From the NCBI GenBank assembly GCA_022572945.1, contig JACZUY010000003.1:1-33732 (forward strand): DNA of 33,732 bases, read 5' to 3'. This document shows positions 8,266 to 28,741 of this stretch, piece after piece. Made by a program: the position numbers and the translations under genes. Source of the DNA: Pseudomonadota bacterium (GTDB taxonomy: Bacteria > Pseudomonadota > Alphaproteobacteria > JAAXGF01). A model generated the notes under the pieces. It searched no databases, was not told the origin of the DNA, and was given only the letters and a program-made list of their open reading frames with translations. The stretch's first letter is position 1. Each line of letters opens with the position of its first letter.

Positions 8266-8553
8266 ATGGCCAATTCACCGCGCCTTGAGATCGAGTATTG
8301 CCGGCAATGCCGGTGGCTGCTGCGCGCGGGGTGGATGGCGCAGGAACTACTGACCACGTTCTCCGACGAGCTGGGCGAGGTCGCCCTGGTCCCGGGCACG
8401 GGCGGCATCTTCGAAGTCCGCGTCGACGGCGAAACCGTCTGGTCACGCAAGCAGCAGTCGCGCTTTCCTGAAATCAACGAGCTTAAGCAGATCGTCCGCG
8501 ACCGGATTGCGCCCGGGAAGAGCCTCGGTCACTCGGAACCAAGCGCTCGATGA
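8266..8553 (+). CDS. Rdx family (SelT/SelW/SelH-like) thioredoxin-fold protein, Cys form
   Basis: Protein of 95 aa with the N-terminal LEIEYCRQCRWLLRA redox motif (CRQC at about 12-15). The second position of CxxC is Cys, where eukaryotic relatives have selenocysteine. GTGGIFEVRVDGETVWSRK and FPEINELKQIVRDRI are the conserved middle and C-terminal elements of the Rdx fold. The exact redox role of bacterial members is not established. Its last 25 bp overlap the 3' end of the convergent GGDEF-EAL gene, and its stop lies in the first unit of the 25-bp duplication. Confidence 0.9.
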   Translation: MANSPRLEIEYCRQCRWLLRAGWMAQELLTTFSDELGEVALVPGTGGIFEVRVDGETVWSRKQQSRFPEINELKQIVRDRIAPGKSLGHSEPSAR

Positions 8554-11177
8554 GCGGCGTCCCCTGGATTCTCGATGAGCGGCGTCCCCTGGATTATCGC
8601 GGCTAAATCGTCGGCAGGAACCGGCGGGCTGAACAGGTAGCCCTGAGCTTGGTCGCAATCCCACGCCTTCAGAATGGTGGCCTGCTCCTCGGTTTCGACG
8701 CCCTCGGCGGTCACCTCCATGTCAAGCCCGCGCCCGAGCCGGATGATCGCCTGGACGATCGCCTTGTCGTCGCGGCTTTGCGCGATCCCGGCGATGAACG
8801 ACCGGTCGATCTTCACCTTCGAGACAGGCAGGTGTCTGAGGTAGGTGAACGAAGCGAACCCGGTGCCGAAATCGTCGACCGTGATCGTCACCCCGAGGTC
8901 ACGCAACAGCTCGAGCGCCGGCACGAGCTTGCTATCGCGTTCCTGCATCAGCATGGTCTCGGTAATCTCGAGTTCGAGCTCGCCGGGATCGACGCCGGCG
9001 CTTGCCAGAACGTCGCGCAGAGCGTCGACGAATCCCTCCCTGCGGAGCTGAACGACCGAGATATTTACCGCGACCGCCGGCGGCGATGCTCCGTCGCGCT
9101 TCCATTGGATGAACTGGGTGCAGACTTCGCGCAGCAACCACTCGCCGAGCGGCAGGATCAGACCGCTGTCCTCGGCGACCGAGATGAACTCTCCGGGCAA
9201 CACCAGGCCGCGCGCGGGATGACGCCAGCGAATCAGCGCCTCTGCGCCGGTAATCCGGCCCGTGGCAAGCTCGATCCGCGGCTGATAGTGGATCTCGAAC
9301 TCGTTCTCCTCGAGCCCGCGCTCAAGCTCTGATTCGAGATCCTTGCGGGCGCGCAGCGCGGCGCTCATCTTGGAGTCGAACAGCTCGTACGTGTTCCGCC
9401 CCTTGCCCTTTCCCGCGTAGAGCGCAACGTCGGCGTGCTTGAGCAGCTCTTCGGCAACCGTGCCGTCGTTGGGAAAAACGGCGATGCCGACGGTCGCGCC
9501 GGTGCGGACCTCATGGCCGCCGAGCGTAAAGGGCTGCGCCAGGGCCTCATTGATCTTGCGGGCGAGAACGACGGCGCCCCGCGGGTCATTGAGCCCGGTC
9601 TCGACCACCGCGAACTCGTCGCCGCCGAGTCGCGCCACCGTGTCAGTCGCGCGGACGATGCGTTTGAGGGTTGCCGCGACCGCCTTGAGCAATTCGTCGC
9701 CGACCGGGTGTCCGAGGTTGTCGTTGACCTCCTTGAACCGGTCGAGGTCCATGAGATGGACCGCCAGCAGGTGCCCGTCACGCTCGGCCTGGGCCATCGC
9801 CGTTTCGAGCCGGTCCCGGAACAGGACGCGGTTCGGCAGGTCGGTCAGCGCATCGTGGTGGGCGAGGTAGTCGATGCGTTGCTGCGCCTCCCTGCGCTCG
9901 GTGACGTCGAGGGCGATGCCGTCCCACACCACGTCGCCGTTTTCGAGCCGCCGCGGTTTCGCGAGGATGCGCACCCACTTGACCCCGTCGGCGCCGCCGA
10001 CGAATCGGACTTCGACGTCCTGGTCGTGAAGCGTCTCGGCCGAGCGCCGCAAGGAGTCACTCCAGGATTCGTAATCCTCGGGATGAATGTGGTCGCGAAT
10101 ATGGGACGCATCGGCCATGATCTCGTCGGGCGAGAAGCCGAACAGCTCGCGGTGCCTGTCGCTGACGAACGGGTAGGTAACCGACCCGTCCGGCTTGAGC
10201 ACGCGGCGAAAGATCCCGCCGGGTATGTTGGACGCCATGCTTTGGAGCCGCTCTTCGCTCTCGCGCAACGCCGCCTCCATGCGGTTGCGTTCGGAGATGT
10301 CACGCGAATAGCAAGCCATCAACTCCTTGTCGCCGTACTTCAGATGATGAATCGTCACCTCGACCGGTATGATCGCGCCGGCCTTGGTGCGGTATCCCGC
10401 CTCGAACCTGGAAGAGCCTCCCTTCTTGATCCGCTCCGAGGCGCGTTCGAAATCCCCGGGGCAGACGTCGGGGTCGATATCGGCGAGGCTCAAGGCAAGG
10501 AGTTCTTCGTGCGAATAGCCGAGCATGTCGCACGTCGCATCGTTCGCGTAGACCACGCGGCCATCACCATCGAGCCACATAGCGGAATCTCCGGCATGGT
10601 CGATCGAGAATTGCGTCAGCCGCAGCGCCTCCTCGGCGCGCTTGCGCTCGGTGATGTCCTCGATCGCGTAGATGACGCGCGACCAGGTGTCGCCATGATG
10701 GGCCGAGATGACCGCCTGCTTTCGCGTAACGATTTTGCTTCCGTCCATCGCGCGCTCGTTGCCCTCGATGCGGAACGTGGTCGCCCCCTCGGCGAAGGCG
10801 ATGAGTTGTTCGCGGAACGCCTTGAGCTCGTCCTTGTCCATGCGCGCGCCGCGGGTCGCGTCGACGATGTCCTCGACGCTCTTTGCGCGGTAGATATCGA
10901 GGGTGGCGTTGCTGACATCGGTAACCGTGACCGCGTTCGCGGCCTCGATCACCTTGTCGCGCCGGCGCTCGAAGTAGCGGCGCCAACCCTTCACACGCGG
11001 GCGCAGCCGATCGAGCGTCGCCTTGACGTCCGACCAGTCCTCGATCCAGATCGAGACCGGAGCGTGCTCGAAGATTTCGCGGTAAAGAGCATCGCTCTCG
11101 CGCGCGCCGAGCTCCTCTCGAGGCGCGCGCGCACGGGGTTTCGACCGCGCTGGGCGGGCGTCGGCTGCTTCGCTCAT
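8529..11177 (-). CDS. PAS-PAS-PAS-GGDEF-EAL c-di-GMP signalling protein
   Basis: Protein of 882 aa from the ATG at 11177, preceded by GGAAGG. The frame is open upstream to 11426, but that part looks non-coding. No membrane segments are visible, so it is probably cytosolic. Three PAS-like modules lie at about 28-155, 175-300 and 310-435. The GGDEF domain has an intact GGDEF motif at 518-522 with an RATD inhibitory-site motif five residues before it. The EAL domain has GAEALIRW (EAL at 646-648), ELEITE, VDDFGTGF and EGVE, so both cyclase and phosphodiesterase sites look complete. The C-terminal end is unusual: a 25-bp duplication shifts the frame after GTPLIE and gives the tail NPGDAAHRALGSE. 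Its position next to the Tad locus fits c-di-GMP control of surface attachment, but this is inference. Confidence 0.92.
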   Translation of the reverse strand: MSEAADARPARSKPRARAPREELGARESDALYREIFEHAPVSIWIEDWSDVKATLDRLRPRVKGWRRYFERRRDKVIEAANAVTVTDVSNATLDIYRAKSVEDIVDATRGARMDKDELKAFREQLIAFAEGATTFRIEGNERAMDGSKIVTRKQAVISAHHGDTWSRVIYAIEDITERKRAEEALRLTQFSIDHAGDSAMWLDGDGRVVYANDATCDMLGYSHEELLALSLADIDPDVCPGDFERASERIKKGGSSRFEAGYRTKAGAIIPVEVTIHHLKYGDKELMACYSRDISERNRMEAALRESEERLQSMASNIPGGIFRRVLKPDGSVTYPFVSDRHRELFGFSPDEIMADASHIRDHIHPEDYESWSDSLRRSAETLHDQDVEVRFVGGADGVKWVRILAKPRRLENGDVVWDGIALDVTERREAQQRIDYLAHHDALTDLPNRVLFRDRLETAMAQAERDGHLLAVHLMDLDRFKEVNDNLGHPVGDELLKAVAATLKRIVRATDTVARLGGDEFAVVETGLNDPRGAVVLARKINEALAQPFTLGGHEVRTGATVGIAVFPNDGTVAEELLKHADVALYAGKGKGRNTYELFDSKMSAALRARKDLESELERGLEENEFEIHYQPRIELATGRITGAEALIRWRHPARGLVLPGEFISVAEDSGLILPLGEWLLREVCTQFIQWKRDGASPPAVAVNISVVQLRREGFVDALRDVLASAGVDPGELELEITETMLMQERDSKLVPALELLRDLGVTITVDDFGTGFASFTYLRHLPVSKVKIDRSFIAGIAQSRDDKAIVQAIIRLGRGLDMEVTAEGVETEEQATILKAWDCDQAQGYLFSPPVPADDLAAIIQGTPLIENPGDAAHRALGSE
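8546..8595. repeat. Perfect 25-bp tandem duplication
   Basis: Positions 8546-8570 and 8571-8595 are identical and directly adjacent; each unit begins CTCGATGAGC and ends CCTGGATT. The unit length is not a multiple of three, so the duplication changes the reading frame at the end of the GGDEF-EAL gene. It also lies at the Rdx gene stop. Confidence 0.95.
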
Positions 11178-11474
11178 TACCTTCCGGCTCCCCTCTCCCG
11201 ACGCCGGCCCGCCCGCCGCGCGGTGGTCCCACTCATTTCGGCTGCCAGCCGCGGCCCGCCCTGCTCGCTCGGTTCTTTCCGGACTGTCCGCCCGACCGGG
11301 GTCGAGCGGCGAGCGTCGATTACCGCAACAACGAGACCTGCTTTCGTTTCGGAGCGGACCCCGCCCCCCCGGAAATAGCCATGAATTTGGCCTGCCGAGC
11401 GACGAGTGAATCACCGGCTCGATCAATCATATTACGAAGCGGCAGTCAACAGCACCGGCGCGCGAAGCGATGCG

Positions 11475-11667: not shown

Positions 11668-11835
11668 ATGATGCGCCGCTTTGTAAAAAGGTTCGTAGGT
11701 GACGAATCCGGCGCCACCGCGATCGAGTACGGCTTGATTGCCGCGGGCATCGCGGTTGCGATCATCGCCGCGGTCGGCCTGTTGGGCGACAGCCTCAACG
11801 CCATGTTCGCCGACGTCGACACCGCGCTGCAATAA
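11668..11835 (+). CDS. flp: Flp/PilA-type major pilin precursor
   Basis: A 55-aa class IVb pilin precursor, starting MMRRFVKRFVGDESG with AAGGAGGG at good spacing. The leader ends at Gly15. The mature part begins ATAIEYGLIAAG, with the conserved Glu (+5) and Tyr (+6) of Flp pilins, followed by the hydrophobic stretch AVAIIAAVGLLG. The prepilin peptidase CpaA, encoded next, is the expected processing enzyme, and the mature subunit would be assembled into a Tad pilus. A second ATG lies at 11671. The gene has its own promoter and is separated from cpaA by 225 bp with three hairpins, consistent with expression above that of the machinery genes. Confidence 0.95.
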   Translation: MMRRFVKRFVGDESGATAIEYGLIAAGIAVAIIAAVGLLGDSLNAMFADVDTALQ

Positions 11836-11985: not shown

Positions 11986-12060
11986 GACGGGGGTGTTTGG
12001 CGTGTTTTCGCCGCGGCGACCTTCGAATTGGGACGCCGGGCGACGCCGGCGCTTTTATTG

Positions 12061-12591
12061 ATGTGGTCGCGGATGCTAGCGACGATTGCGGTACTCGCGT
12101 TTCTTGGCGCGCTGCTGTACGCCGCGTATCACGACGCGACGACGTACCGGATTCCCAACTGGTTGTCGGTGGCGATCGTCGCCGATTTTCTCTTCGCGGC
12201 GGCGGTCGCGCCACTCGACATGACGGCCGTGGGATGGCACCTGAGCGCCGGCGCGGCGCTGCTGGTGGCGGGCGCCGGCCTGTTCGCCGCGGGCGTGCTG
12301 GGCGGCGGCGATGCCAAGCTGTTGGCGGCGTCGGGCACGTGGTTCGGCTGGGGCGCGCTGGCGCCGTATTTGATCGTTGTCGCGTTGCTCGGCGGCGCAC
12401 TCGCCGTCGCGATCCTGATGTTGAGACGCACGCCCCTGCCCGATTCATTGAGCGACAAGGCCTGGATCAACCGCCTGCACTCGCCCGACGAAGGTGTCCC
12501 CTACGGGGTGTCCATCGCGCTCGGCGGCTGCGTGATGGCGGGTAAGCTCCCGCTCGCCGGCGTCGCCCTGGCCGGCGTTCCCGGCCTATGA
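12061..12591 (+). CDS. cpaA: Prepilin peptidase CpaA/TadV (A24 family)
   Basis: A 176-aa membrane aspartyl protease from the ATG at 12061. Alternatives are the ATG at 12073 or the TTG at 12028; none has a good ribosome-binding site. It keeps both A24 catalytic aspartates: Asp25 in HDATTYRIPN and Asp84 in GGGDAKLLAA. It lacks the N-terminal cysteine-rich methylase domain of PilD, as usual for TadV/CpaA. About five hydrophobic segments are visible. Expected role: cleavage of the Flp leader, and of pseudopilins encoded elsewhere. A perfect 20-bp palindrome at 12600-12619 follows its stop. Confidence 0.92.
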   Translation: MWSRMLATIAVLAFLGALLYAAYHDATTYRIPNWLSVAIVADFLFAAAVAPLDMTAVGWHLSAGAALLVAGAGLFAAGVLGGGDAKLLAASGTWFGWGALAPYLIVVALLGGALAVAILMLRRTPLPDSLSDKAWINRLHSPDEGVPYGVSIALGGCVMAGKLPLAGVALAGVPGL

Positions 12592-12810: not shown

Positions 12811-15800
12811 ATGCGTATCGCCGCCGTAATTGTCATCATCGTCGCGCTCGGTTTCGGCGGACTGACCTTTTATCTCGTCCAAAACTATTTGGTGGCTGAG
12901 AGGGTAAAGATATTTGCGGATGCCGAGAAAGAGAAGCCGGGGATCGACGCCGTCGACGTGGTGGTCGCCCAACGCAATCTCCCGGCAGGCACGGTTCTTT
13001 TCGAAACCGATCATCTGAGGTGGCAACCCTGGCCCGACGATTCGCTCGACGACGATTACATCGTCAAGCGCGATGACGATGACGACGAGAAGATCGAGGA
13101 GCTCGAAGACATGGTGGTTCGCAGCGCCATCCTGGCCGGCGAACCGGTGACCTTCGCCAAGGTCTTCAAGCGCGAGGACGCAAGATTCGTCTCCGGCCTG
13201 ATGTCGGCCGGCATGCGCGCCGTCACCATCGGCATGAACAAGAAAACATTGGGCAAGGCCGGCGTGATCCTTCCGGGCGACCGCGTCGACGTGATCCTGA
13301 CTCTGAGCGTTCCGGCCGTGGGCGGGCGAACCGGCGAAGAGCGCGAGATGAAGAGGTCGAGCGAGACCATCGTTCAAAACGCCCGCGTCATGGCCATCGA
13401 CAGCACGTTCAGCGATCTCGAGGAAGGCACGCTGTCGGGCGAAGCGATCACGCTCGAAGTGACGCCCAAGCAGGCCGAGGTGATCGCGCTGGCGCAGACG
13501 ATGGGCGAGCTGACCGTCGCGCTGAGAAGCCTGACCCAGGGCCCGCGCGTGGTCTACGACGTCCCGTTCACCAGCGACCTCGAAATCAGCCAGGCGTTGA
13601 GCGGAGACCCGAGGGCGCGCGAGCGACACGTGGCAACCCCGAAGCCCGGTGAGTCGCCGGCCCGGTCGTCGGAGGCGGCGCCCGCCGGCGAGCAGGCGGC
13701 AATGGGCGAGACGGCCGCCGATACGGGGCTGACGACGACGCGCGTGCTCGCGCTCGACCGCGACATTCTGGCGGGCACACTTATCCGCGACAGCTTTCTG
13801 ACCTGGGCCTACCTGCCCCGGAGCAACGCCCCGGACGATTACTTCGTCCAGCCGCGTGAACTGATCGCGACCTTGCGCGGCGCCCTGATCACGCGGGATT
13901 TCCCCGCTGGCGAGCTGTTGCCGAAGGCCGCGGTGATCATGCCAGACTCGCCCGAGTTCATTCCGGCGGCCGTCAGGCCGGGCATGCGGGCGATCGGGAT
14001 TCCGATCGGGGGCGACGTGATGACCCTGATCTCGGCGAGCGACGTCATCGATGTGCTGCTTGTGGGCAGTATCACATCCGAGGCGGGCGAGCATCGCTTC
14101 AGCGAAACGATCGTCCAGCGGGTCCGCGTGCTCTTGGTCGACGAGTCGACGGCCACGGCGATCGTGGAGGTAACCCAGAAGGAAGCCGAAAAGCTGCTCG
14201 TGGCCCGAGGGTTGGGATCCATCACCTTGAGCTTGCACGGCACGACCGGCGCCGGGACCGTGCGCCGCGAACGCCTGTTCACCAGCGATATCGAGGTCAG
14301 CCAGGTCCTCAAGGGCGGCGTCAAGGCGCTCCTCGAGGCCAGCGAGGAAGCGCCGATCGAGAAGCCGGAACTGATTCCCGAGACCGCTGCGATCACCCTC
14401 TCCAGCGTCCTCGTCGCCGCAGGCGACGTGGCGCCGGGCACGCTGCTCAGGGACAGCAACTTCCGGTTCGCGACGATCGAAGGGCCGGTGACCGCCGATA
14501 TGGGGTACTTCGTCAAGGGCGTGGTCAGGCCCGAAACGCTGCGCGGATACCTGGTGACCACGGCGATCACCGCGGACGAGCCGCTCGCGGCCGACAAGCT
14601 GATGGCGCCCGCGGAACCCGGCTTCATGACCGCCGCGCTTATGGACGGGATGCGCGCCGTCAGCATCGCCATCGATCCCGTGACCGGCGTTTCCGGTTAC
14701 GTGTCGGCCGGCGACCGCATCGATTTGGTGATGACGTACACGGTTGTGATACAGGGAGGCGGCGAGCGGAAGTGGAGCGAAACCATCTTGCAGAACGTGC
14801 GCGTGCTGGCGATCGAGCAGGGCGTGGACCGTGCGACCGGCAAGCCCACGGTTGGCGACACCGCGACGGTCGAGCTCTTCCCCAACCAGGTCGAGATTCT
14901 CAGGGTTGCGTCCGACTACGGCGTGGTGTCGATGTCATTGCGCGGTCCCCCGTCGGAGGTGAAGCCCGAGTTCGGCTTCACCTATGCCAGCGAGTACGGC
15001 GCCGGCGCCGGTATCTTGGAGTACTTGGGCAGCGGCCGCGCTATCGGCGTCGCCGACAAAGGCCTCGTCGCAACGCCCCCGTTCTCGCGGAGTGCGATTC
15101 GCGTCCTCGTGGCGGAGCGTGATTTGGCGGAGGGCACGCTGCTCAAGGACAGCGATTTCCGCTTCGAGCCCGTCGAAGGCGAATTGCCGCCGGGCGCGGA
15201 GCGCATCGTCATGGGATCGACGGCGATCAATACGTTGCGCGGCGCGCTTGTCAAGAGCGCGATCGCGGCGAACGAGTTCATTCCCGCCAAGGCGCTGTTC
15301 AAGCCGAACGCGCAGGGATTTCTCGCGGCCGCCATCAGGCCGGGGATGCGCGCCGTCAGTATCGCCATCGATGAGGTCACCGGCGTGTCCGGGTTCGTCT
15401 CCCCCGGCGACATCGTCGATGTGCTCATGACTCATAAAGTGGACGACACCTCCGAAGAGCCGATCCTCTCGCCGCGGCGGTTCGCCGAGACGGTGGCGCG
15501 GGGAACACGCGTCGTCGCCGTCGAGCAATTGATCGACCCGTCGAGCGGCAAGCCGACCGCGGGCAAGACGGTGACCCTGGAGGTGACGCCCAAGCAGGCG
15601 GAAATCCTCGCCCTGGCCAAGGACCTTGGCGCGCTGTCGCTGGCCTTGCACAGCGCATCGCCCGGCGCGACCGAGGTCGCGGAGACATCGTTCACCTCGG
15701 ACTGGGAGATCAGCGACGCGCTGCTGGCATACTCGTTGGGGGCCGAACCCATGTACCGCGTCGTGCGTCCGGAGATTCCGGCCGATCCGCCCTTCGACAT

Positions 15801-15972
15801 TCGTTGGCTCCGGATTCCTGTATTCCCGCGGGATATGCTCAAGGGATTGCAACCGGCGTTGGCCAAGGCCGCCGAGCCCGCGCCGGCCGAGCCCGAGGAG
15901 GAGAAGCCCGCCGGCCCCAAGGTCAAGGTGTACCGCTCCGTCACCCCCTCGACGGTCGAATTCGAACAATAG
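12811..15972 (+). CDS. cpaB: Giant CpaB/RcpC protein with four tandem SAF-CpaB units
   Basis: 1053 aa, about four times the usual CpaB/RcpC length. Start ATG 12811 (MRIAAVIVIIVALGF) gives one N-terminal membrane anchor (2-26); the rest should be periplasmic. Four homologous units follow, at about 48-268, 308-503, 526-741 and 761-977. Each has a SAF-like start (for example VLVAERDLAEGTLLKDSDF), a central GMRA motif (134, 391, 613, 845), a PGDRVDV-like motif (ASDVIDV, AGDRIDL, PGDIVDV), an S/A-E-T-I/V motif and, in units 1, 2 and 4, an FTSD-I/E-S end. Unit 1 has an acidic insert, DDDDDE (88-93). Units 3 and 4 are closest (GMRAVSIAID.VTGVSG). The tail at 978-1053 is Pro/Glu/Lys-rich. CpaB normally works in the periplasm with the secretin CpaC, encoded 17 bp downstream. 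The frame is uninterrupted across all units, so this is a fusion or internal amplification, not an assembly of separate genes. Confidence 0.95.
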   Translation: MRIAAVIVIIVALGFGGLTFYLVQNYLVAERVKIFADAEKEKPGIDAVDVVVAQRNLPAGTVLFETDHLRWQPWPDDSLDDDYIVKRDDDDDEKIEELEDMVVRSAILAGEPVTFAKVFKREDARFVSGLMSAGMRAVTIGMNKKTLGKAGVILPGDRVDVILTLSVPAVGGRTGEEREMKRSSETIVQNARVMAIDSTFSDLEEGTLSGEAITLEVTPKQAEVIALAQTMGELTVALRSLTQGPRVVYDVPFTSDLEISQALSGDPRARERHVATPKPGESPARSSEAAPAGEQAAMGETAADTGLTTTRVLALDRDILAGTLIRDSFLTWAYLPRSNAPDDYFVQPRELIATLRGALITRDFPAGELLPKAAVIMPDSPEFIPAAVRPGMRAIGIPIGGDVMTLISASDVIDVLLVGSITSEAGEHRFSETIVQRVRVLLVDESTATAIVEVTQKEAEKLLVARGLGSITLSLHGTTGAGTVRRERLFTSDIEVSQVLKGGVKALLEASEEAPIEKPELIPETAAITLSSVLVAAGDVAPGTLLRDSNFRFATIEGPVTADMGYFVKGVVRPETLRGYLVTTAITADEPLAADKLMAPAEPGFMTAALMDGMRAVSIAIDPVTGVSGYVSAGDRIDLVMTYTVVIQGGGERKWSETILQNVRVLAIEQGVDRATGKPTVGDTATVELFPNQVEILRVASDYGVVSMSLRGPPSEVKPEFGFTYASEYGAGAGILEYLGSGRAIGVADKGLVATPPFSRSAIRVLVAERDLAEGTLLKDSDFRFEPVEGELPPGAERIVMGSTAINTLRGALVKSAIAANEFIPAKALFKPNAQGFLAAAIRPGMRAVSIAIDEVTGVSGFVSPGDIVDVLMTHKVDDTSEEPILSPRRFAETVARGTRVVAVEQLIDPSSGKPTAGKTVTLEVTPKQAEILALAKDLGALSLALHSASPGATEVAETSFTSDWEISDALLAYSLGAEPMYRVVRPEIPADPPFDIRWLRIPVFPRDMLKGLQPALAKAAEPAPAEPEEEKPAGPKVKVYRSVTPSTVEFEQ

Positions 15973-15989: not shown

Positions 15990-17414
15990 GTGATCAAGTT
16001 CCTGGCCGGTCTTTTGGTGGTCGCAGCGTGTGTCGCGGCCGGGCCCGCTGCCGCGCAGCAGACGTCCGCGCCGGCCGAGTCGGTCCCAGACACGATCTTG
16101 CTGTCGTTAAACAAGGCGGCGATCTTCGAGCTTCCCGTCGACGCGCGCGACGTGCTCGTCGCCAACCCCGAGATCGCCGACGTGGTGATCAAGACGCCAC
16201 GAAGGGCCTATGTCCTGGGCCAGGGAATCGGCGACACCAATGTCTACTTCTTCGACGATCAGGGGAACGAAATCCTGCGTCTCGAAGTTCGCGTCGAGCT
16301 CGACCTGTCGGGGCTGCGGCAGGTATTGGCCAAAGTGCTGCCCGACGAACGCATCGAGGTGACCGCGGCGAACGAGAACATCATTCTCACCGGCACCGTG
16401 CGGTCGGCCAAGGCCGCCGAGGACGCCCGGCTGGTCGCGCGCCAGTTCGTCTCCGACGATTCGGAACTGGTCAACATGCTCGGCATCGCCAACGACCAGC
16501 AAGTGGTGCTGCGCGTGCGGATTGCCGAGATGCAGCGAAACATCGTCAAACAGCTCGGCATCTCCACGAACGTGACGGTGCTTGACGCAGGTAACAGTAA
16601 CTTCTCGCTGCTTGGTCAGGGCGGACTCATTGGCGCAGCCGCTGCCGCCAATGCGTTCACGCGAGGTCTCGTATCGGTGGTCTCGGGCGCCCATCTCTTC
16701 GACGAGCTGAGTGTCACGCTCGACGCCCTCGAAAGCCAGGGCCTGGTCAAGACCCTTGCCGAACCCACCCTGACCGCGATATCGGGGGAAAATGCGAACC
16801 TCCTGGTCGGCGGCGAGTTCCCCGTTCCGGTCAACGTGACGGTGACCGATGCGGGCCAGGTTACGATCGATGTTGAGTTCAAGCAATTCGGCATCGTCTT
16901 GACCTTCACGCCCGTGGTGCTGAGTTCGGGACTGATAAGCCTCAAGCTCTCCACCGAGGTGAGCTCACTTGATTTCGTCGAGACCAAACTCGACATCCCG
17001 ATCGGCGGAGGGCAGGTGGTCACTATTCCGGGTCTGATCGTCAACCGGGCGGAGACGACGGTCGAGCTGCCGAGCGGCGGCAGCATCGTGATCGCGGGAT
17101 TGCTGCAGGACGACGTTCGCAACACGATCGAAGGGATCCCCGGCTTGAAGGACATCCCGATCCTTGGCGCCTTGTTCCGCAGCACCAGCTTCCAGAAGGG
17201 CGAGACCGAGCTGGTGATCACGGTGACCGCCTATCTTTCACGCCCAGTAAGCGAAGGAGCGATCGCCCTGCCGACCGACGGCTTCGCGCCGGCGAACGAT
17301 TTCGATATGTATCTGCTGGGCCGGCTGCACGACGTCTACGTCAAGCCCAAGGCTCCGGACCAGGCGCTGCCGATCGGACGGCTGCTGGGTCCCGTCGGCT
17401 ACATCATGGAATGA
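15990..17414 (+). CDS. cpaC: Tad pilus outer-membrane secretin CpaC/RcpA
   Basis: 474 aa from the GTG at 15990, chosen because GGGAGAG precedes it and it starts a signal peptide (MIKFLAGLLVVAACVAAG, cleavage after about residue 22). Residues about 33-103 are the pilus N-terminal domain (VANPEIADVVIKTPR; GDTNVYFFDD). Residues about 105-170 are BON-like. Residues about 240-440 are the secretin domain (VVSGAHLFDELSVTLDALES; GIVLTFTPVVLSSGLISLKL; PGLKDIPILGALFRS). The secretin forms the outer-membrane channel for the Flp pilus. It overlaps cpaD by four bases (ATGA), suggesting translational coupling. Confidence 0.95.
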   Translation: MIKFLAGLLVVAACVAAGPAAAQQTSAPAESVPDTILLSLNKAAIFELPVDARDVLVANPEIADVVIKTPRRAYVLGQGIGDTNVYFFDDQGNEILRLEVRVELDLSGLRQVLAKVLPDERIEVTAANENIILTGTVRSAKAAEDARLVARQFVSDDSELVNMLGIANDQQVVLRVRIAEMQRNIVKQLGISTNVTVLDAGNSNFSLLGQGGLIGAAAAANAFTRGLVSVVSGAHLFDELSVTLDALESQGLVKTLAEPTLTAISGENANLLVGGEFPVPVNVTVTDAGQVTIDVEFKQFGIVLTFTPVVLSSGLISLKLSTEVSSLDFVETKLDIPIGGGQVVTIPGLIVNRAETTVELPSGGSIVIAGLLQDDVRNTIEGIPGLKDIPILGALFRSTSFQKGETELVITVTAYLSRPVSEGAIALPTDGFAPANDFDMYLLGRLHDVYVKPKAPDQALPIGRLLGPVGYIME

Positions 17415-18136
17415 CGGTCATGGGACATTTGAGACACCCAGAGAGCGTACGCTGGCGCCGGCTGTGCGTCCTGTGCGGCCTCGGCCTGATTCTCGCCGCG
17501 TGCACGACGGCGGAGATGAGGATAGGCGGACTGCCCGTGTTCAGTGAGGATTACAGCCAGCGGCATCCGCTTGCCGTCGAAAGCGTCCGCGCCACCCTCA
17601 ACCTGCCGGGCGCGGAAGGCGCGGAACGGCTCACTTCCGGCGAGCTCCGCCGGATCGACGGGTTCGTGGCGGCCTATATGGCCGAGAGGCGCGGACAGCT
17701 GATGATCAGCGTGCCCGGCGCCGCCGCGGGCGATGCCCGGGTTCTCGGCCGGGCCAAGCAGATCGCCGACCGGGCGCGCCAGCACGGCCTGCCTGCCGCC
17801 GAGGTTATCCTCCGCGTCGCCACGGATGAGCAGGAAGCAAACGCCCCGGTGATGGTAAGCTACGAGAAGCTCGTCATGCGCATCCCCGCATGCGGCGACT
17901 GGAGCAAGGAAGCGAGCTACGACTGGACCAACACCGTCCACAGCAACTTCGGTTGCTCGATGCAGCGCGGAGTCGGGCTGATGATCGCCGATCCAGGCGA
18001 CCTGGCCAGGCCCCGCCAAGCCGGACTGCGCGACGCCGTGCGGAGCAACACCATCATTCAACTGTACCGCGCCGGAGAGGTGACAGGCGCCGCCCGCGCC
18101 GAGGCAGAGGAAGCGGAAGCGGAGGAGGCGGAGTAA
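17411..18136 (+). CDS. cpaD: Tad pilus lipoprotein CpaD
   Basis: 241 aa with a lipoprotein signal: lipobox LAAC with Cys31. A second in-frame ATG lies at 17420. The conserved CpaD region is in the C-terminal half: NTVHSNFGCSMQRGVGLMIA followed by DPGDLARPR. CpaD-type proteins are outer-membrane lipoproteins of the Tad machine, thought to help the secretin. The last 25 residues are Ala/Glu-rich, ending EAEEAEAEEAE. Confidence 0.9.
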   Translation: MTVMGHLRHPESVRWRRLCVLCGLGLILAACTTAEMRIGGLPVFSEDYSQRHPLAVESVRATLNLPGAEGAERLTSGELRRIDGFVAAYMAERRGQLMISVPGAAAGDARVLGRAKQIADRARQHGLPAAEVILRVATDEQEANAPVMVSYEKLVMRIPACGDWSKEASYDWTNTVHSNFGCSMQRGVGLMIADPGDLARPRQAGLRDAVRSNTIIQLYRAGEVTGAARAEAEEAEAEEAE

Positions 18137-18164: not shown

Positions 18165-19379
18165 TTGACCATTTTCAGGACGACGATAACCGCCTTTCTC
18201 GAAAGCGAAGAGACGAAGGCCATAGTCGACCAGGCGTTCGCCGACCGCCGGCTCGAGAAGGCCATCACCGACAGCCACCTCGGGGGGGCCGTTGGTGCGG
18301 TCGCGCATTTCAGCGAGAGCACCACGCCGAACCTCATCATCATCGAGACGGCGCTCAGCGGCGACGACCTGTTGGAAAGCATCGGCGGTTTGGCCGAGGT
18401 CTGCGACGAGGGAACCGAGGTCCTCGTCCTCGGCGCGGTCAACGATGTGGCGACGTACCGCAGCCTGACGCAGGAGGGCGTGAGCGACTACCTGGTTTCG
18501 CCGTTCACCCCGATCCAGATCTATCAGGCGATCGAGTCGGTCGCCATAGATCCGTCGGAGCCGCCGCGCGGCCGCGTCATCGCCTTCATCGGCGCGAAGG
18601 GCGGCACCGGCAGCAGCACGGTCGCGCACAACATCGCGTGGTCGCTCGCGCGGATCCGCGACGACGACGTCGTCGTCCTCGATCTCGACCTCGCATTCGG
18701 CACGCTGGGAATGGCGTTCAATATGGAGTCGGAGCAGGGCATCGTAGACGCGCTGGCCCATCCCGACCGTCTCGACGAGGTGCTTCTCAAACGCTACATG
18801 TCGATGCCCGAAGACCACCTAATGCTGCTTTCCGCCCGCGGGGTGCTTGACAGCGACGCCGACATCGACATTGAATCGTTCGATACGTTGCTGAATCTGG
18901 TCCGCACGACGGCGCCGTTCATTGTCCTCGATGTACCAACTCACTGGACGTCGTGGACTCAACACGTGCTCAAGAGTTGCGAGGAGATCGTGGTCACGTC
19001 GATGCTTGATTTGGCCTGCTTGCGGGATTCGAAGAATCTGGTCGATACGCTGACCGCCGGGCGGCCCAACGACGCGCCGATCCGTTTGGTCGTCAACCAC
19101 CAGGGCGCGTTTCGGAAGAGCGAACTGTCGACCAAGGACTTCGAGCACGCCGTCGGAAGTTCGCCGGATTTGGTCATCGCGCACGATCCCGCGCTGTTCG
19201 GCACCGCGACCAACAACGGTCAGATGATCGGAGTCGAGAACCCACGCCACAAAGTCACGGAGGGATTCAACGCGCTCGCGCAAACCATAAGCGGCATCGA
19301 ACCGCCGAGGTCGAAGAAGCAAGAACCGGAGAAGGCGGCGGGTGCGCTTTCCTTTTTGGCGAAGCTACGAAAAGGTTAA
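18165..19379 (+). CDS. cpaE: Tad localisation ATPase CpaE/TadZ
   Basis: About 404 aa. The N-terminal receiver-like domain (about 1-140) includes LVLGAVNDVATYRSL and GVSDYLVSPFTP. The C-terminal ParA/MinD-type ATPase has a deviant Walker A, FIGAKGGTGSSTVAHN, and a Walker B, VVVLDLDLAFGT. CpaE/TadZ places the pilus machine, often at a pole. The start is uncertain. AAGGAG (18159-18164) directly abuts the TTG at 18165, while the in-frame ATT at 18171 has ideal 6-nt spacing, and no ATG is near. CpaF starts four bases after the stop. Confidence 0.9.
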   Translation: MTIFRTTITAFLESEETKAIVDQAFADRRLEKAITDSHLGGAVGAVAHFSESTTPNLIIIETALSGDDLLESIGGLAEVCDEGTEVLVLGAVNDVATYRSLTQEGVSDYLVSPFTPIQIYQAIESVAIDPSEPPRGRVIAFIGAKGGTGSSTVAHNIAWSLARIRDDDVVVLDLDLAFGTLGMAFNMESEQGIVDALAHPDRLDEVLLKRYMSMPEDHLMLLSARGVLDSDADIDIESFDTLLNLVRTTAPFIVLDVPTHWTSWTQHVLKSCEEIVVTSMLDLACLRDSKNLVDTLTAGRPNDAPIRLVVNHQGAFRKSELSTKDFEHAVGSSPDLVIAHDPALFGTATNNGQMIGVENPRHKVTEGFNALAQTISGIEPPRSKKQEPEKAAGALSFLAKLRKG

Positions 19380-19382
19380 GTG

Positions 19383-20852
19383 ATGTCATTCGGAAAACGC
19401 AGTGGCGCCCCAGCCAAGAAGCCGGTCGACGTAGCGCCGCCGGAACCTGAACGGGACCCCACACCCAAGCCGGACATCAAGGTGGTCGCCTCCAGGGAGG
19501 AGGCGAAACCAGAGCCCAAACAAGAGGCCGCGCCGCCGCCCAAGCCAAAGGGACCAGCCGATCCGGCCGCCGAGGCGCGCTTCGCCCAGACCAAGATCAA
19601 CATCTTCAATGCGCTGATCGACACGGTCGACCTCACCGAGCTGAGCAAGCTCGAAACGGACCAGGTGCGCGAAGAGATCACCGACATCGTCTCCGAGATC
19701 ATCAGCCTGCGCAATCTGGTGCTGAGCGCCGCCGAACAGCAGCGGCTGATCACCGAGATCTGCGACGACGTGCTCGGTCTCGGACCGCTCGAGCCGTTGC
19801 TCGCGCGCGACGATATCGCCGACATCATGGTCAACGGCTACGACAAGGTCTACATCGAGACCGGCGGCACGATCGAGCTCACCGACATCAAGTTCCGCGA
19901 CAACACGCAGCTGATGAACATCTGCCAGCGCATCGTCAGCGCGGTGGGCCGGCGCGTCGACGAATCGAGCCCGATCTGCGACGCGCGCCTGCTCGACGGC
20001 AGCCGCGTCAACGTGATCGCGCCGCCGTTGTCGATCGACGGACCGACGCTGACGATCCGCAAGTTCAAGAAGGACAAGCTCAAGCTGTCCGACCTGGTCA
20101 ACTTCGGGGCCATACCGCCGGCCGGCGCCAAGCTCCTGGAGGTCATCGGCGCGGCCCGGCTCAATATCCTGATCTCGGGCGGCACCGGCAGCGGCAAGAC
20201 CACGCTGCTCAACGCGCTCACCGGGTTCATCGACATGGGCGAGCGCACCATCACCTGCGAGGACTCGGCCGAGCTGCAGCTCCAGCAGCCCCACGTGGTG
20301 CGGCTGGAGACCCGGCCGCCGAACCTCGAGGGCGTCGGTGAGATCACCATGCGGGACCTGATCAAGAACTGCCTGCGGATGCGCCCCGAACGGATCATCG
20401 TCGGCGAGGTGCGCGGACCCGAGGCGTTCGACCTGTTGCAGGCGATGAACACCGGCCACGACGGCTCGATGGGCACCATCCACGCCAACAACCCGCGCGA
20501 GGCGCTCAGCCGCGTCGAGAACATGATCGCCATGGGCGGCTACAATCTGCCGGCGAAGACGGTGCGCGAGCAGATCGCCGCGGCGGTTCATGTCATCATC
20601 CAGGCGCAGCGCCTGCGCGACGGTTCGCGCCGCATCACCCACATCACCGAGGTGATGGGCATGGAAGGCGAGGTGGTGATTCTCCAGGATCTCATCCTCT
20701 ACGAGATCACCGGCGAGGACGCCGACGGCAAGCTCATCGGCCACCACAAAGCGACCGGCGTGCGGCCCGCGTTCTGGGACCGCGCGCGCTACTTCGGTCT
20801 CGAGGACCTGCTCCAGGAGGCGATGGAGGGCCTGCAAGGCGACCCGGCGTGA
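19383..20852 (+). CDS. cpaF: Tad pilus assembly ATPase CpaF/TadA
   Basis: 489 aa from the ATG at 19383 (a GTG immediately before is also possible), with AAAAGG upstream. The first 65 residues are Pro/Lys/Glu-rich and probably disordered. Then come the N-terminal domain of secretion ATPases and the motor domain, with Walker A GGTGSGKTT (266-274), the Asp/Walker B region RIIVGEVRG (337-345) and the conserved TGHDGSMGTIHANNPREAL. The hexameric cytoplasmic motor would drive Flp pilus extension, and probably retraction, through TadB and TadC encoded just downstream. Confidence 0.96.
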   Translation: MSFGKRSGAPAKKPVDVAPPEPERDPTPKPDIKVVASREEAKPEPKQEAAPPPKPKGPADPAAEARFAQTKINIFNALIDTVDLTELSKLETDQVREEITDIVSEIISLRNLVLSAAEQQRLITEICDDVLGLGPLEPLLARDDIADIMVNGYDKVYIETGGTIELTDIKFRDNTQLMNICQRIVSAVGRRVDESSPICDARLLDGSRVNVIAPPLSIDGPTLTIRKFKKDKLKLSDLVNFGAIPPAGAKLLEVIGAARLNILISGGTGSGKTTLLNALTGFIDMGERTITCEDSAELQLQQPHVVRLETRPPNLEGVGEITMRDLIKNCLRMRPERIIVGEVRGPEAFDLLQAMNTGHDGSMGTIHANNPREALSRVENMIAMGGYNLPAKTVREQIAAAVHVIIQAQRLRDGSRRITHITEVMGMEGEVVILQDLILYEITGEDADGKLIGHHKATGVRPAFWDRARYFGLEDLLQEAMEGLQGDPA

Positions 20853-20858
20853 AGCCCA

Positions 20859-21857
20859 ATGGATAGCCCCCTCATACTCACGCTTGCGGTGGCCTTCACC
20901 ATGGCCCTGCTCTTGGGGTCCGTGTGCACCGTCTTTGCCTACGAGCTCAAGTTCGGCCCCCGCGCGCGTTTGCGCAAACGGGTCAAGGCGATCGTCGACC
21001 CGGGCGGCAGCGAGGCCGCCGCAAAGAGAGACAAAGGCGCCGGCGCCCAACGGAAAATGATTCAGGCGAGGTTGAAGGAGCTCGAGGACACGCAGAAGAA
21101 GTCGAAGCGGCGATTCGAGATCCGCAAGAAGATTCAGGAAGCCGGTCTCGACATGCCGGTCACCCACATCTACCTCATCAGCGTCGTCGTCGGGGTGATC
21201 GCGGCGGGTATTTATATTCTGTTCAAGTTCGGACCCTTGTGGGCTACGCCGCTGGTCGCCATTCCGGTGGGCTTCTTCCTGCCGACATACGCGCTTGGTT
21301 TCATCGCGCGCCGGCGCCAGAAAAAATTCACCTTTCATTTCGCCGACGCGATCGACGTCATTACGCGCGGCATCCAGTCGGGCCTGCCGACCGCGGAGTG
21401 CATGCGAATCATCGCCCGCGAGAGTCCCGAACCGGTGTGCACCGAATTCCGGTTGTTCACCGAGGGCCAGCGCCTTGGACTGACGCTCGACGAGGCGCTC
21501 GAGCGCGCGACCGACCGTATGCCGACTCCGGAGCTGAAGTTTTTCGCCATCGTCCTCAACATCAACGCGCAGACCGGCGGCAACCTCGCCGAGACGCTGG
21601 GCAACCTGTCGAAAGTGCTGCGCGGCCGCAAGCAGATGGCCGACACGATCAAAACCAAATCGTCCGAGGCGAAATCGACGGCGATGATCATCGGCGCCCT
21701 GCCCTTCTGCATCATGGCGATGCTGGCCGTCATCAGTCCCGAGTATATCGTCCTGCTTTTCACCGAGGATCTCGGCAACACCCTGCTCTACGTCGCCGGC
21801 GGGTTGATGGGCGTGGGAGCGTACGTCATGAACGCCATGACCAAGCTGAAGATGTGA
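20859..21857 (+). CDS. tadB: Tad inner-membrane platform protein TadB
   Basis: 332 aa. N-terminal membrane segment at about 5-27, a charged cytoplasmic stretch at about 30-95, a pair of membrane segments at about 102-150, then the T2SSF (GspF-like) helical domain (FADAIDVITRGIQSGLPTAE; LNINAQTGGNLAETLGNLSK) and two C-terminal segments. It is the inner-membrane core contacted by the CpaF motor. It follows cpaF by six bases. Confidence 0.93.
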   Translation: MDSPLILTLAVAFTMALLLGSVCTVFAYELKFGPRARLRKRVKAIVDPGGSEAAAKRDKGAGAQRKMIQARLKELEDTQKKSKRRFEIRKKIQEAGLDMPVTHIYLISVVVGVIAAGIYILFKFGPLWATPLVAIPVGFFLPTYALGFIARRRQKKFTFHFADAIDVITRGIQSGLPTAECMRIIARESPEPVCTEFRLFTEGQRLGLTLDEALERATDRMPTPELKFFAIVLNINAQTGGNLAETLGNLSKVLRGRKQMADTIKTKSSEAKSTAMIIGALPFCIMAMLAVISPEYIVLLFTEDLGNTLLYVAGGLMGVGAYVMNAMTKLKM

Positions 21858-21865
21858 GGGTCGTC

Positions 21866-22828
21866 ATGCTCGACAGATTTATCGATCAGCAGGCGCTCAT
21901 CGTGTTCCTCGCCAGCGCCGCGACGTTCATGATGATCGTCGCCCTGGCGATGCCGTTCCTGCAACAGAGCGCATTGAGCTCGCGCCTCAAGGCCGTGGCC
22001 AAGCGGCGCGAGGAGTTGAGCCAGCAACAACGCGCCAAGCTTCAGGAAAAGGATAAGAAGTCCCTGGTGAGCGAGACCCAGATCGGCTTGATGAAAAAGG
22101 TGGTCGAGGCGGTGAACCTCGAGGAGCTTCTGGCGTCGCAGGAACTGAAGAACAGGCTTGCCCAGGGGGGATATCGCGGGCCGGCCGCCGCCATCATCTT
22201 CACCTTCATGCGGCTGTTGATGCCAATCGTACTGGCTATCCTCACGTGGTTCATCTTGTTCGTCGCGAAGACGTTCGACGTCGATTTCTTCATGAAATTG
22301 ATCTATTGCTTCGCCGCGCTGCCGATCGGTTACTTCCTCCCCAATCTGATTCTCACCAGCCAGATTCAGTCGCGCCAGCAAGAGTTTACGATGCAGTTCC
22401 CCGATGCCCTCGATTTGCTGGTCATTTGTGTCGAGGCGGGTCTGTCGATGGAGGCCGCGTTCAACCGCGTTACCGACGAGATGGCGGAAAACGCGCCGGT
22501 CCTGGCTCAGGAGTTCGGCCTGACCACGGCCGAGCTCGCCTACCTCGGGGACCGCGGCAAGGCGCTCGAAAACCTCGCCCTCAGAACCGGGCTGGATACC
22601 GTCAAGTCGTTCACCACGTCGTTGATCCAGTCGGAGAAGTACGGCACGCCCCTGGCCACCGCCTTGCGCGTGATCTCGCAGGAGAACCGCGAGAAGCGCA
22701 TGGCGAAGGTCGAGGAGAAGGCCGCGGCCCTGGGCGCCAAGATGACCGTGCCGATGATCGCCTTCTTCCTGCCGGTGATCTTCATCGTCGTCATCGGCCC
22801 GGCGGTCATCCAGGTCATGGCGATGTAG
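21866..22828 (+). CDS. tadC: Tad inner-membrane platform protein TadC
   Basis: 320 aa from the ATG at 21866, with GAGGG just upstream. The layout matches TadB: N-terminal segment at about 13-36, charged region, a segment pair near 100-160, T2SSF domain (MQFPDALDLLVICVEAGLSM; GLDTVKSFTTSLIQSEKYGT) and a C-terminal segment. It is the partner of TadB. It is the last gene of the rightward pilus run in this window; tadE/F/G-type pseudopilins do not follow. The next gene is convergent, 81 bp away. Confidence 0.93.
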   Translation: MLDRFIDQQALIVFLASAATFMMIVALAMPFLQQSALSSRLKAVAKRREELSQQQRAKLQEKDKKSLVSETQIGLMKKVVEAVNLEELLASQELKNRLAQGGYRGPAAAIIFTFMRLLMPIVLAILTWFILFVAKTFDVDFFMKLIYCFAALPIGYFLPNLILTSQIQSRQQEFTMQFPDALDLLVICVEAGLSMEAAFNRVTDEMAENAPVLAQEFGLTTAELAYLGDRGKALENLALRTGLDTVKSFTTSLIQSEKYGTPLATALRVISQENREKRMAKVEEKAAALGAKMTVPMIAFFLPVIFIVVIGPAVIQVMAM

Positions 22829-22909: not shown

Positions 22910-23659
22910 TCAGCCGAGAATCAGCGGCCCGTAGAGCCACGCCAGCCAGGTCGCGAGGCAGACGCACGCCCCCACCGGCAGCCGCCGGTCGGCGGAGCGC
23001 GTACGAGCATGGACGACCGCGACGGCGAGCGCCGCCAGCAAGGCGACGACCGCGACGTCGGGGAATCCCTGCCATCCCACCCATGCGCCGGCCGCCGCGA
23101 GCAGCCTGGCTTCGCCCGACCCCAGGGCGGACTTACGGTCGAGCCTTGCGTCCGCCGCCGGCATGGCCAAACCGCAGCCGAAGCCGATTCCGGCGCCGGC
23201 CAGGCTGTCGACCATCGCGCCTGGGCCGGTGATTGCGGCAACCGCGAAGCCGACGGAGAAGAGCGCCACAACCAGCTCGTTGGGCACGGTGAAATGGCGC
23301 GTGTTGATCAGCGCCAGCACCATCAGCAGCCATCCCAGAATGCTCCCCGCCCAGAGCTCCGGACCCGACGCCACGGTCCACGCCCAAAGCACGACGGCGA
23401 GCGCCGCCAGCTCGATGAGCGGGTAGAACAGGCTCACCCGTTCACCGCAGTAGCGGCATCGGCCGCGACTCACCATCCAGTTGACCACGGGCATGAGATC
23501 GAGGAGGCCGAGCACGTGCCCGCAGGCATCGCACGCCGAGCGGTCGATCAGGACCTTGCGGCCCGCCGGAATGCGCAACGCCAACACGCCGAGAAAGCTG
23601 CCGGTTATCGGAGCGATCCCCAGCAATATGACGGTCGATAGCAGGACGGCGTCTGTCAT
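22910..23659 (-). CDS. PilD/GspO-type prepilin peptidase with altered catalytic residues
   Basis: 249 aa from the ATG at 23659. Several membrane segments and the N-terminal four-cysteine zinc motif are present (CDAC at 43-46; CRYC at 68-71). The first A24 catalytic motif reads LALINTRHFTVPN, with Asn119 where the family has Asp. The GxGD motif reads GSGEARLLAAAGAW, with Glu183 instead of Asp. The rest of the motif context is well conserved, so the alignment is not in doubt. Either the protease activity is lost or greatly reduced, or it is a divergent form. It is on the opposite strand to the Tad genes and converges with tadC. The active-looking CpaA at 12061 can cover Flp processing. Confidence 0.85.
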   Translation of the reverse strand: MTDAVLLSTVILLGIAPITGSFLGVLALRIPAGRKVLIDRSACDACGHVLGLLDLMPVVNWMVSRGRCRYCGERVSLFYPLIELAALAVVLWAWTVASGPELWAGSILGWLLMVLALINTRHFTVPNELVVALFSVGFAVAAITGPGAMVDSLAGAGIGFGCGLAMPAADARLDRKSALGSGEARLLAAAGAWVGWQGFPDVAVVALLAALAVAVVHARTRSADRRLPVGACVCLATWLAWLYGPLILG

Positions 23660-23867
23660 CGCCACTGGCTCGTGCGCGGCCCAACGTTGCGTGCCGCCAC
23701 AGTGCCCGTCGACCGGCCCGGATTCAACCCGCTTGGGCAGCCCACCCGCCGGCGCCGGGGCAATGTCCGGCCCGGACAAATTTGTTCGCAGCAAACCCTT
23801 GGCATGCAGGCCCTCGCGCCCCATTGTTGGGCGTAGCGGGCGTACGAGTTGTCGAAGGGAGCGGTCG

Positions 23868-24200
23868 ATGAGCGATGCGAACAACGCCGAATGGCATCGG
23901 GTAGCGAAGACGAGCGAGGTCACGGACGACGAGCCCAAGGCGGTCCAGGTCGGCGCCGAGTACATCGCGCTCTTCAAGGTGGACGGAACCTTCTACGCCA
24001 CCGACGACGTTTGCACGCACGAGTTCGCGTCGCTTTCGGAAGGCTTCGTCGAGGGCGACGTGATCGAATGCCCCCTTCACGCGGGGCAATTCCACATTCC
24101 CACCGGAAAAGCGCTGTCGCCGCCGGTCGAGGAGGACTTGCGCACCTTTCCGGTCAAGGTCGAAGGCGACGACATCTACGTGCAGGTTCCCAAGGGCTGA
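23868..24200 (+). CDS. Rieske [2Fe-2S] ferredoxin
   Basis: 110-aa soluble Rieske protein. Cluster ligands Cys49 and His51 (CTH) and Cys68 and His71 (CPLH) are all present. It resembles the ferredoxin components of aromatic-ring dioxygenases and the NirD-like group. The ATG at 23868 is preceded by GAAGGGAG about 6 nt upstream. The FAD reductase gene starts 33 bp downstream, so the two probably form an electron-transfer pair for an oxygenase or another acceptor. No terminal oxygenase is in the window. Confidence 0.92.
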   Translation: MSDANNAEWHRVAKTSEVTDDEPKAVQVGAEYIALFKVDGTFYATDDVCTHEFASLSEGFVEGDVIECPLHAGQFHIPTGKALSPPVEEDLRTFPVKVEGDDIYVQVPKG

Positions 24201-27021: not shown

Positions 27022-27450
27022 ATGAGACGCCGTCTAGCCACCGTCATCGGGCTCGTGTTATTCGCCGCTCTTCCCGCCGGCGCGGCCGAGACCTTGCGCG
27101 TGACCGTCGACAAGGCGCACCTGATGCACCTCGACACCGATGCGGGCACCATCATGGTCGCCGACCCGACCATTGCCGATGTCGTGCTCGAATCGCCGCG
27201 GTTGGTCTTCATTGTCGGCAGAGCTCCCGGCGAGACGAACCTTTACATCCTCGACGTCAATGGCGCGGAAATCGTGCATACCGACCTGTTGGTCGTGCCG
27301 AACGTCGATCGCGAGGTGACTCTCGATCGCAACACCGTGGAGGCGACGTTCAGCTGCGCGCCGCGTTGCGCCCGGATTGCGACGCCAGGCGCCGCCCAGG
27401 AGGCGGAGGAAGCGAGCACCGCTGATGAGAGCGCCGAGGCCGGAGGCTGA
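27022..27450 (+). CDS. Free-standing secretin N-terminal (pilus) domain protein
   Basis: 142-aa exported protein: signal peptide MRRRLATVIGLVLFAALPAG (1-20), then one pilus-assembly N-terminal domain. It parallels CpaC in this window: VADPTIADVVLESPR against VANPEIADVVIKTPR, and GETNLYILD against GDTNVYFFD. The secretin barrel is absent. Two cysteines (Cys112, Cys116; SCAPRC) could form a periplasmic disulfide. The tail is Ala/Glu-rich. It may cap, pilot or compete with the CpaC periplasmic ring; this is inference. Confidence 0.85.
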   Translation: MRRRLATVIGLVLFAALPAGAAETLRVTVDKAHLMHLDTDAGTIMVADPTIADVVLESPRLVFIVGRAPGETNLYILDVNGAEIVHTDLLVVPNVDREVTLDRNTVEATFSCAPRCARIATPGAAQEAEEASTADESAEAGG

Positions 27451-28520: not shown

Positions 28521-28741
28521 GTGTTCCCCGGCGCGGCAGGCGGCGCAAGCGCGCTTTGATTGCTCGCGACGCGCCTTTTCACGCATGCATGAGTCCTCGC
28601 GCTAGAGCGGTAACTGGATTTGATAGTGCGCATAATTCGTTAATGGATTAGCGTTAGTGTGACGTGCTGTGCTGGAGTCAGCCACCGGCCGGCAATTCTC
28701 CGGCGCAAGGGAGCCCTGAACAGTCTGTGGTCGTGGGATTC

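Follow-up and report, generated by a model that had tools for sequence, protein, structure and literature searches.

A four-unit CpaB in an alphaproteobacterial tad locus and its possible assembly as a concatenated alignment ring

Background

How does a Tad pilus machine make use of a CpaB protein that carries four homologous units in one chain, when the usual chain carries one? The question is raised by a cpaB gene in a 33,732-nucleotide stretch of alphaproteobacterial DNA (contig JACZUY010000003.1 of assembly GCA_022572945.1, the whole of which is here called the window), where it is part of a tad locus and adjoins the gene for the secretin CpaC. We report that the encoded protein has four units of SAF and RcpC domains behind one predicted membrane anchor, and argue with moderate confidence that three such chains may make up the ring that is elsewhere built from twelve.

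The solved homologue is RcpC of Pseudomonas aeruginosa (9gzr), 12 subunits of which make a ring whose 5-nm pore guides the pilus; the D2 domains are arranged with C12 symmetry and the D1 domains as six dimers, so that the whole is C6 (PMC12307814). Oligomerisation of RcpC depends on helix L3, which in each subunit packs against the D2 of the next, while the C-terminal hairpin docks on the N-domain of the secretin (PMC12307814). Among homologues, this hairpin of CpaB has a docking role towards the secretin or CpaI (PMC12307814, PMC13170226), the Caulobacter CpaI being a protein with a predicted secretin-N-domain fold and a predicted bridge between CpaB and the secretin (PMC13170226). The P. aeruginosa model has a secretin:RcpC ratio of 13:12 and a TadABC ratio of 6:3:3, i.e. 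TadB:TadC 3:3 (PMC12307814).

Domain content and anchor of the four-unit CpaB

The start of cpaB was placed at the ATG at 12811. The mechanical open reading frame (ORF) begins 20 codons upstream at a GTG, and the ATG was preferred because the CpaB of a relative in the same family (genome G002) starts with the identical residues MRIAAV. The features of the gene are as follows, the two types of unit being those separated by the phylogeny described below.

12811..15972 (+): cpaB, a 1053-aa open frame encoding four SAF plus RcpC units (four matches each to PF16976, PF08666 and TIGR03177)
12817..12924 (+): predicted N-terminal membrane helix, residues 3-38 of the AlphaFold2 model, hydrophobic core at residues 5-23 (AlphaFold2 helix, hydropathy)
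12928..13665 (+): unit 1, residues 40-285, type-1 SAF (D1) plus RcpC (D2), L3 motif FTSDLEISQAL at 253 (profiles, trees)
13723..14370 (+): unit 2, residues 305-520, type-2, L3 motif FTSDIEVSQVL at 490 (profiles, trees)
14383..15075 (+): unit 3, residues 525-755, type-2, L3 motif lost (profiles, motif scan, AlphaFold2)
15079..15765 (+): unit 4, residues 757-985, type-2, L3 motif FTSDWEISDAL at 961 (profiles, motif scan, AlphaFold2)
15919..15969 (+): single C-terminal beta-hairpin VKVYRSVTPSTVEFEQ, predicted strands at 1037-1042 and 1045-1050 (AlphaFold2; same tail in relatives)

Pfam finds both RcpC (PF16976) and SAF (PF08666) four times in the chain. When units 1 to 4 were scanned singly, all passed the curated cut-offs of RcpC (85.5, 48.0, 88.1 and 105.2 bits; cut-off 28.8), of SAF (34.4, 29.2, 21.9 and 27.2 bits; cut-off 21), with a SAF-type D1 preceding every RcpC domain, and of the pilus_cpaB profile TIGR03177 (182.6, 98.7, 148.7 and 187.1 bits; cut-off 71). 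The four units are 31-47% identical in pairs (E 1e-19 to 1e-51), units 3 and 4 being the closest. The protein is a clear member of the CpaB/RcpC family, in which the canonical architecture of one D1-D2 per chain is usual and no part of the family definition; here four were counted. Weak profile and fold matches (3frn/3tee) to the flagellar P-ring chaperone FlgA reflect a shared SAF-type fold; FlgA has no RcpC domain and serves another system, and the FlgA profile TIGR03170 reached 41 bits against a cut-off of 54.65, through the SAF part only, which leaves the four-unit protein outside that family.

Residues 5-23 form the only strong membrane segment (mean hydropathy 2.51; the next peak, 1.84, falls in a beta-strand region), and the predicted topology is that of CpaB/RcpC, with one N-terminal helix and the remainder periplasmic. 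In the full-length AlphaFold2 model all four units fold, in blocks mostly of 70-95 pLDDT (predicted local distance difference test), and are followed by one C-terminal hairpin. Foldseek returned as its best match RcpC 9gzr (E 2e-10, probability 1.00), which is also the only sequence relative in the PDB; the whole-chain template modelling (TM) scores against it are low (0.40-0.46 of target), perhaps from a differing D1-D2 orientation. The four-unit chain shares with RcpC the N-terminal membrane helix, the SAF D1, the RcpC D2, L3, the C-terminal hairpin and the place in a tad locus beside the secretin. It differs in having four D1-D2 units per chain against one, three of them in a distinct type-2 clade, and a single anchor and a single hairpin for every four units.

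An earlier note, made from the DNA sequence of the window, had described a single uninterrupted frame of 1053 aa with four homologous units behind one anchor. Profiles, identities and hydropathy agree on this description, the GMRA motif recurs at residues 134, 391, 613 and 845 just as the note had listed it, and both the SAF and RcpC/CpaB profile scores and the AlphaFold2 folds give four units and not one.

Ring elements in the individual units

The Arg130-Asp153 pair, which makes a D2-D2 contact in RcpC, recurs in each of the four units, as Arg136 and Asp160 in unit 1, and in every relative compared; the equivalent of Arg130 is the Arg of GMRA and that of Asp153 the second Asp of PGDxVD. Motif scores for L3 after units 1, 2 and 4 were 26.4, 24.9 and 22.6 bits (best of 300 shuffles, 18.5), with AlphaFold2 helices at these sites (256-264, 494-510 and 969-975); after unit 3 neither the motif scan nor AlphaFold2 gave an L3. 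Unit 2 is the most diverged and lacks both the D2 loop that matches eta4 of RcpC (interface 2) and the PGD motif. The C-terminal hairpin, or tail, is single in one-, two- and four-unit proteins alike.

Single-unit and two-unit relatives

The G002 genome has an orthologous, syntenic tad locus of the same order that ends at the same Rieske gene. Its CpaB (L053:7579-8481, 301 aa) has one unit only, 49-51% identical to unit 1, and a hairpin tail, VKVFRSSSASTREF, similar to that of the four-unit protein. The other tad genes of the two loci are 43-74% identical (cpaC 54%, cpaF 74%), and because they match gene by gene, cpaB is the sole change of scale between the loci. The G002 locus also has two flp-like pilin genes at L053:9421-9946 (-), where the window has one pilin gene.

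Among 385 genomes of the class, RcpC matches were found in 155, and four matches, by per-genome counts, in the window genome only. CpaB proteins of two units occur in at least 20 alphaproteobacterial genomes, mostly metagenome-assembled genomes (MAGs), from two families outside that of the window. Every one of the 11 f68 genomes with a CpaB, from another order, has the two-unit form (523-559 aa, with one protein of 636 aa), as do 9 of the 11 genomes with RcpC matches in f35, from a third order (536-601 aa). The carriers (L033-L043, L108, L110 and L111 in these families; L041, L035, L023 and L110 are examples) include MAGs named Rhodospirillaceae or Alphaproteobacteria. Their first and second units are distinct and anciently separated. 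They resemble the four-unit protein in having a type-1 unit first and a type-2 unit last according to the trees, in their tad locus with a stand-alone PF13629 gene and, for f68, in the C-terminal tail VxVYRxTxPSTVxxER; they differ in having two units, a very short inter-unit linker (D1 of unit 2 lies only about 10 residues past L3 of unit 1) and a type-2 unit that has not been amplified.

A scan of 84,980 species confirmed 515 loci, of which the best 80 contain 12 frames of two units and none of three or four; as unit 1 carries one of the scan patterns, a close four-unit relative would have been detected. No other multi-unit CpaB turned up in searches of plasmids and across the phylum. The four-unit form was thus found once and a three-unit form never. 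Several candidates were rejected: a 582-aa frame on contig C114 of G002 (L095) joins the start of an RND transporter to an RcpC fragment at a contig end and is a probable assembly chimera; the CpaB-like ORFs in the stretches examined from G688 (long frame of 539 aa) and G695 (reported 821 aa) have one unit each; two stretches of L142 are one unit split by an insertion; and plasmid matches joined from four pieces were single-unit CpaBs aligned to each query unit.

The premise that CpaB normally has one unit is amended by the two-unit form of 523-636 aa. Our search of open-licence papers gave no report of a multi-unit CpaB, in line with the claim that no four-unit CpaB had been described, although the protein extends a two-unit family and is no leap from one unit to four. 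To our knowledge the four-unit architecture, the two-unit family and the split into type-1 and type-2 units are all undescribed.

Evolutionary history of the units

In two maximum-likelihood trees, units 2-4 group with all second units of the two-unit proteins (support 100/99 and 100/99.7), forming one clade with all 15 of them in the latter (100/99.7), and unit 1 groups with first units and ordinary CpaB, beside the G002 unit (99/96 and 97/86). An independent amplification within the lineage, in which the four window units form one clade, was rejected by the approximately unbiased (AU) test (p 0.00013 and 3.4e-7); a clade of units 2-4 was not rejected (p 0.53). Units 2 and 3 are fast-evolving, on long branches of 1.3-2.0 changes per column. 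AAGFILPGD and WQxWP are found in first units and most ordinary CpaBs, and VSG(F/Y)..(P/A)GD and TGKPxxG in units 3 and 4 and most second units; in type-2 units the D1 contact strand is diverged and WQxWP lost. Because trees and sequence characters agree, the chain is read as a type-1 unit followed by three type-2 units. It would most simply have arisen by amplification of the last unit of a two-unit ancestor, in which case the single unit of G002 would be a loss, or else the type-2 unit would have been acquired by transfer.

The surrounding tad locus

The tad locus is intact, in the order flp, cpaA, cpaB, cpaC, cpaD, cpaE, cpaF, tadB, tadC, and comprises, besides cpaB, the following genes, together with a stand-alone gene downstream.

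11668..11835 (+): flp pilin, GATAIEYGLIAAGIAVAIIAAV, 57-60% identical to the pilins of the G002 locus
12028..12591 (+): cpaA prepilin peptidase (PF01478)
15990..17414 (+): cpaC secretin, 474 aa (PF00263, PF13629, BON), beginning 17 nt past cpaB
17411..18136 (+): cpaD (PF09476)
18165..19379 (+): cpaE (AAA_31/ParA)
19380..20852 (+): cpaF ATPase (PF00437), 74% identical to that of G002
20859..21857 (+): tadB/cpaG platform protein (PF00482)
21866..22828 (+): tadC/cpaH platform protein (ORF; similarity to the G002 locus)
27022..27450 (+): stand-alone secretin-N-domain protein (PF13629 only)

CpaC is of normal size, its 474 aa being 54% identical over 502 columns to CpaC of the single-unit relative G002. 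The protein at 27022-27450 is, from its domain content, probably the counterpart of Caulobacter CpaI, and all two-unit genomes that were tested likewise carry a second PF13629 gene. The stretch from tadC to the Rieske gene holds, on the opposite strand, another prepilin peptidase gene (22910-23977, -), whose product has the N-terminal A24_N domain and for which the G002 locus (L053) has no room at the matching place. Second-messenger genes cluster around the pilus genes, flanking the tad locus:

242-2470 (-): CHASE2-nucleotide cyclase
8529-11426 (-): PAS-GGDEF-EAL protein
27675-28520 (+): response-regulator GGDEF protein
28664-29443 (+): Crp-type regulator

Discussion

By analogy with RcpC, we propose that the four-unit CpaB may form a concatenated alignment ring of three chains with four units each instead of twelve chains with one, a reading in which we have moderate confidence. 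A side-by-side arrangement of the units of a chain is suggested because the ring-contact Arg-Asp pair is present in all units, L3 follows units 1, 2 and 4, and each chain has one docking hairpin. Since the solved RcpC ring has 12 subunits, the likeliest change would be from twelve chains to three with twelve units kept; six chains of the two-unit species would give the same twelve-unit ring. The observed unit numbers of 1, 2 and 4 all divide 12, and 2 and 4 keep the D1 domains paired. The pore would be unchanged, while each ring would have three anchors and three docking hairpins where the usual ring has twelve of each. A fused chain would also hold its units in a set order and leave them free to specialise by position, candidates for such specialisation being the diverged D1 contact strand of the type-2 units with its lost WQxWP and the absence from unit 2 of the D2 loop.

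Several observations weigh against this arrangement. The AlphaFold2 predicted TM (pTM) score is 0.34 for the full length and 0.42 for units 1-2, so that the models give no reliable arrangement between units. Unit 3 is without L3 and unit 2 without the interface-2 loop and the PGD motif, and both may pack unlike ordinary subunits, possibly as accessory domains. Conservation of the Arg-Asp pair may serve folding and not the ring, and the mapping of the other RcpC contact residues is uninformative, as those besides Arg130 and Asp153 are unconserved even in ordinary alphaproteobacterial CpaBs. Finally, the four-unit form is a single example, from a MAG that is 81% complete.

The divergence of the middle units leads to the first alternative, in which unit 1 or unit 4 alone would form an ordinary ring and the others would hang from it as accessory domains, for example in contact with peptidoglycan, CpaI or minor pilins. 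That units 2 and 3 lie on long branches and each lack one ring element fits such a role; all four units, however, retain the Arg-Asp pair and score above both the RcpC and the SAF cut-off, and in two other families a type-2 unit is kept in second place, with the hairpin tail after it. We regard this alternative as unlikely.

A somewhat more doubtful alternative is axial stacking, with each unit in its own 12-membered layer and twelve chains building a tube of four layers across a wider envelope. D1 and D2 are both complete in every unit, the inter-unit linkers are 20-50 residues long and of low confidence in AlphaFold2, and one anchor and one hairpin per chain could stand at opposite ends of the tube, as in an ordinary CpaB. 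The remainder of the locus, however, matches single-unit G002 gene by gene with a CpaC of ordinary size, and L3, an element of lateral contact, is kept after three units. Three extra layers would also misfit an ordinary periplasm: RcpA-RcpC is modelled at 21 nm of the 24-nm periplasm in P. aeruginosa (PMC12307814), and the Caulobacter tad machine stands in a periplasm of 29-33 nm. The earlier note had offered altered ring symmetry or a wider periplasm as consequences of the four units; the first is the better half of that proposal, through the possible change from 12 to 3 chains, and the second is disfavoured, as stacking three more layers would need a periplasm of far more than usual width, while CpaC and its neighbours are of normal size.

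There is a slim chance that the chain is cleaved in the periplasm into several ordinary-sized CpaB-like subunits. The linker between units 1 and 2, of about 45 residues, is rich in Ala, Pro, Glu and Ser and predicted to be unstructured, but cleavage would leave the anchor on unit 1 only and the hairpin on unit 4 only, and the gap of about 10 residues in the two-unit family could hardly accommodate a cleavable linker.

A false join made during assembly between separate or repeated copies of cpaB would suit a fragmented source MAG (2.29 Mb in 255 contigs), but such an artefact is very unlikely, and carries almost no weight with us, because exact repeats inside the gene reach 17 nt at most and its units are of two anciently separate types, in one open frame with even GC content at third codon positions (GC3, 0.85-0.88), a best DNA similarity between units of about 67% over 336 nt, no second cpaB locus found in the source genome, and the same order of type-1, then type-2 units and one tail as in the independent two-unit genes of 20 other genomes.

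If the concatenated ring of three chains is formed, the ring would become three-fold and match the 3:3 TadB:TadC platform. More tentatively, the fusion may then be a built-in symmetry adaptor that turns a homo-oligomer of C6/C12 symmetry into a C3 ring of fixed unit order, having only three anchors and three tails, with the two-unit species as an evolutionary intermediate.

Conclusions

The alignment ring of the Tad machine was solved only in 2025, and CpaBs of one, two and four units are a natural graded series on which its copy number in other species, its mismatch with the 13-14-fold secretin and the number of docking tails it needs become testable. If three chains of the four-unit protein do make the ring, three anchors and as many hairpins would suffice and the twelve units per ring would be an evolutionary constant. 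Such a ring would, in addition, be a clear example from bacteria of the passage from a homo-oligomeric to a concatenated hetero-unit ring in a pilus machine, in which gene fusion may set the symmetry of a ring and how many anchors and docking tails it has.

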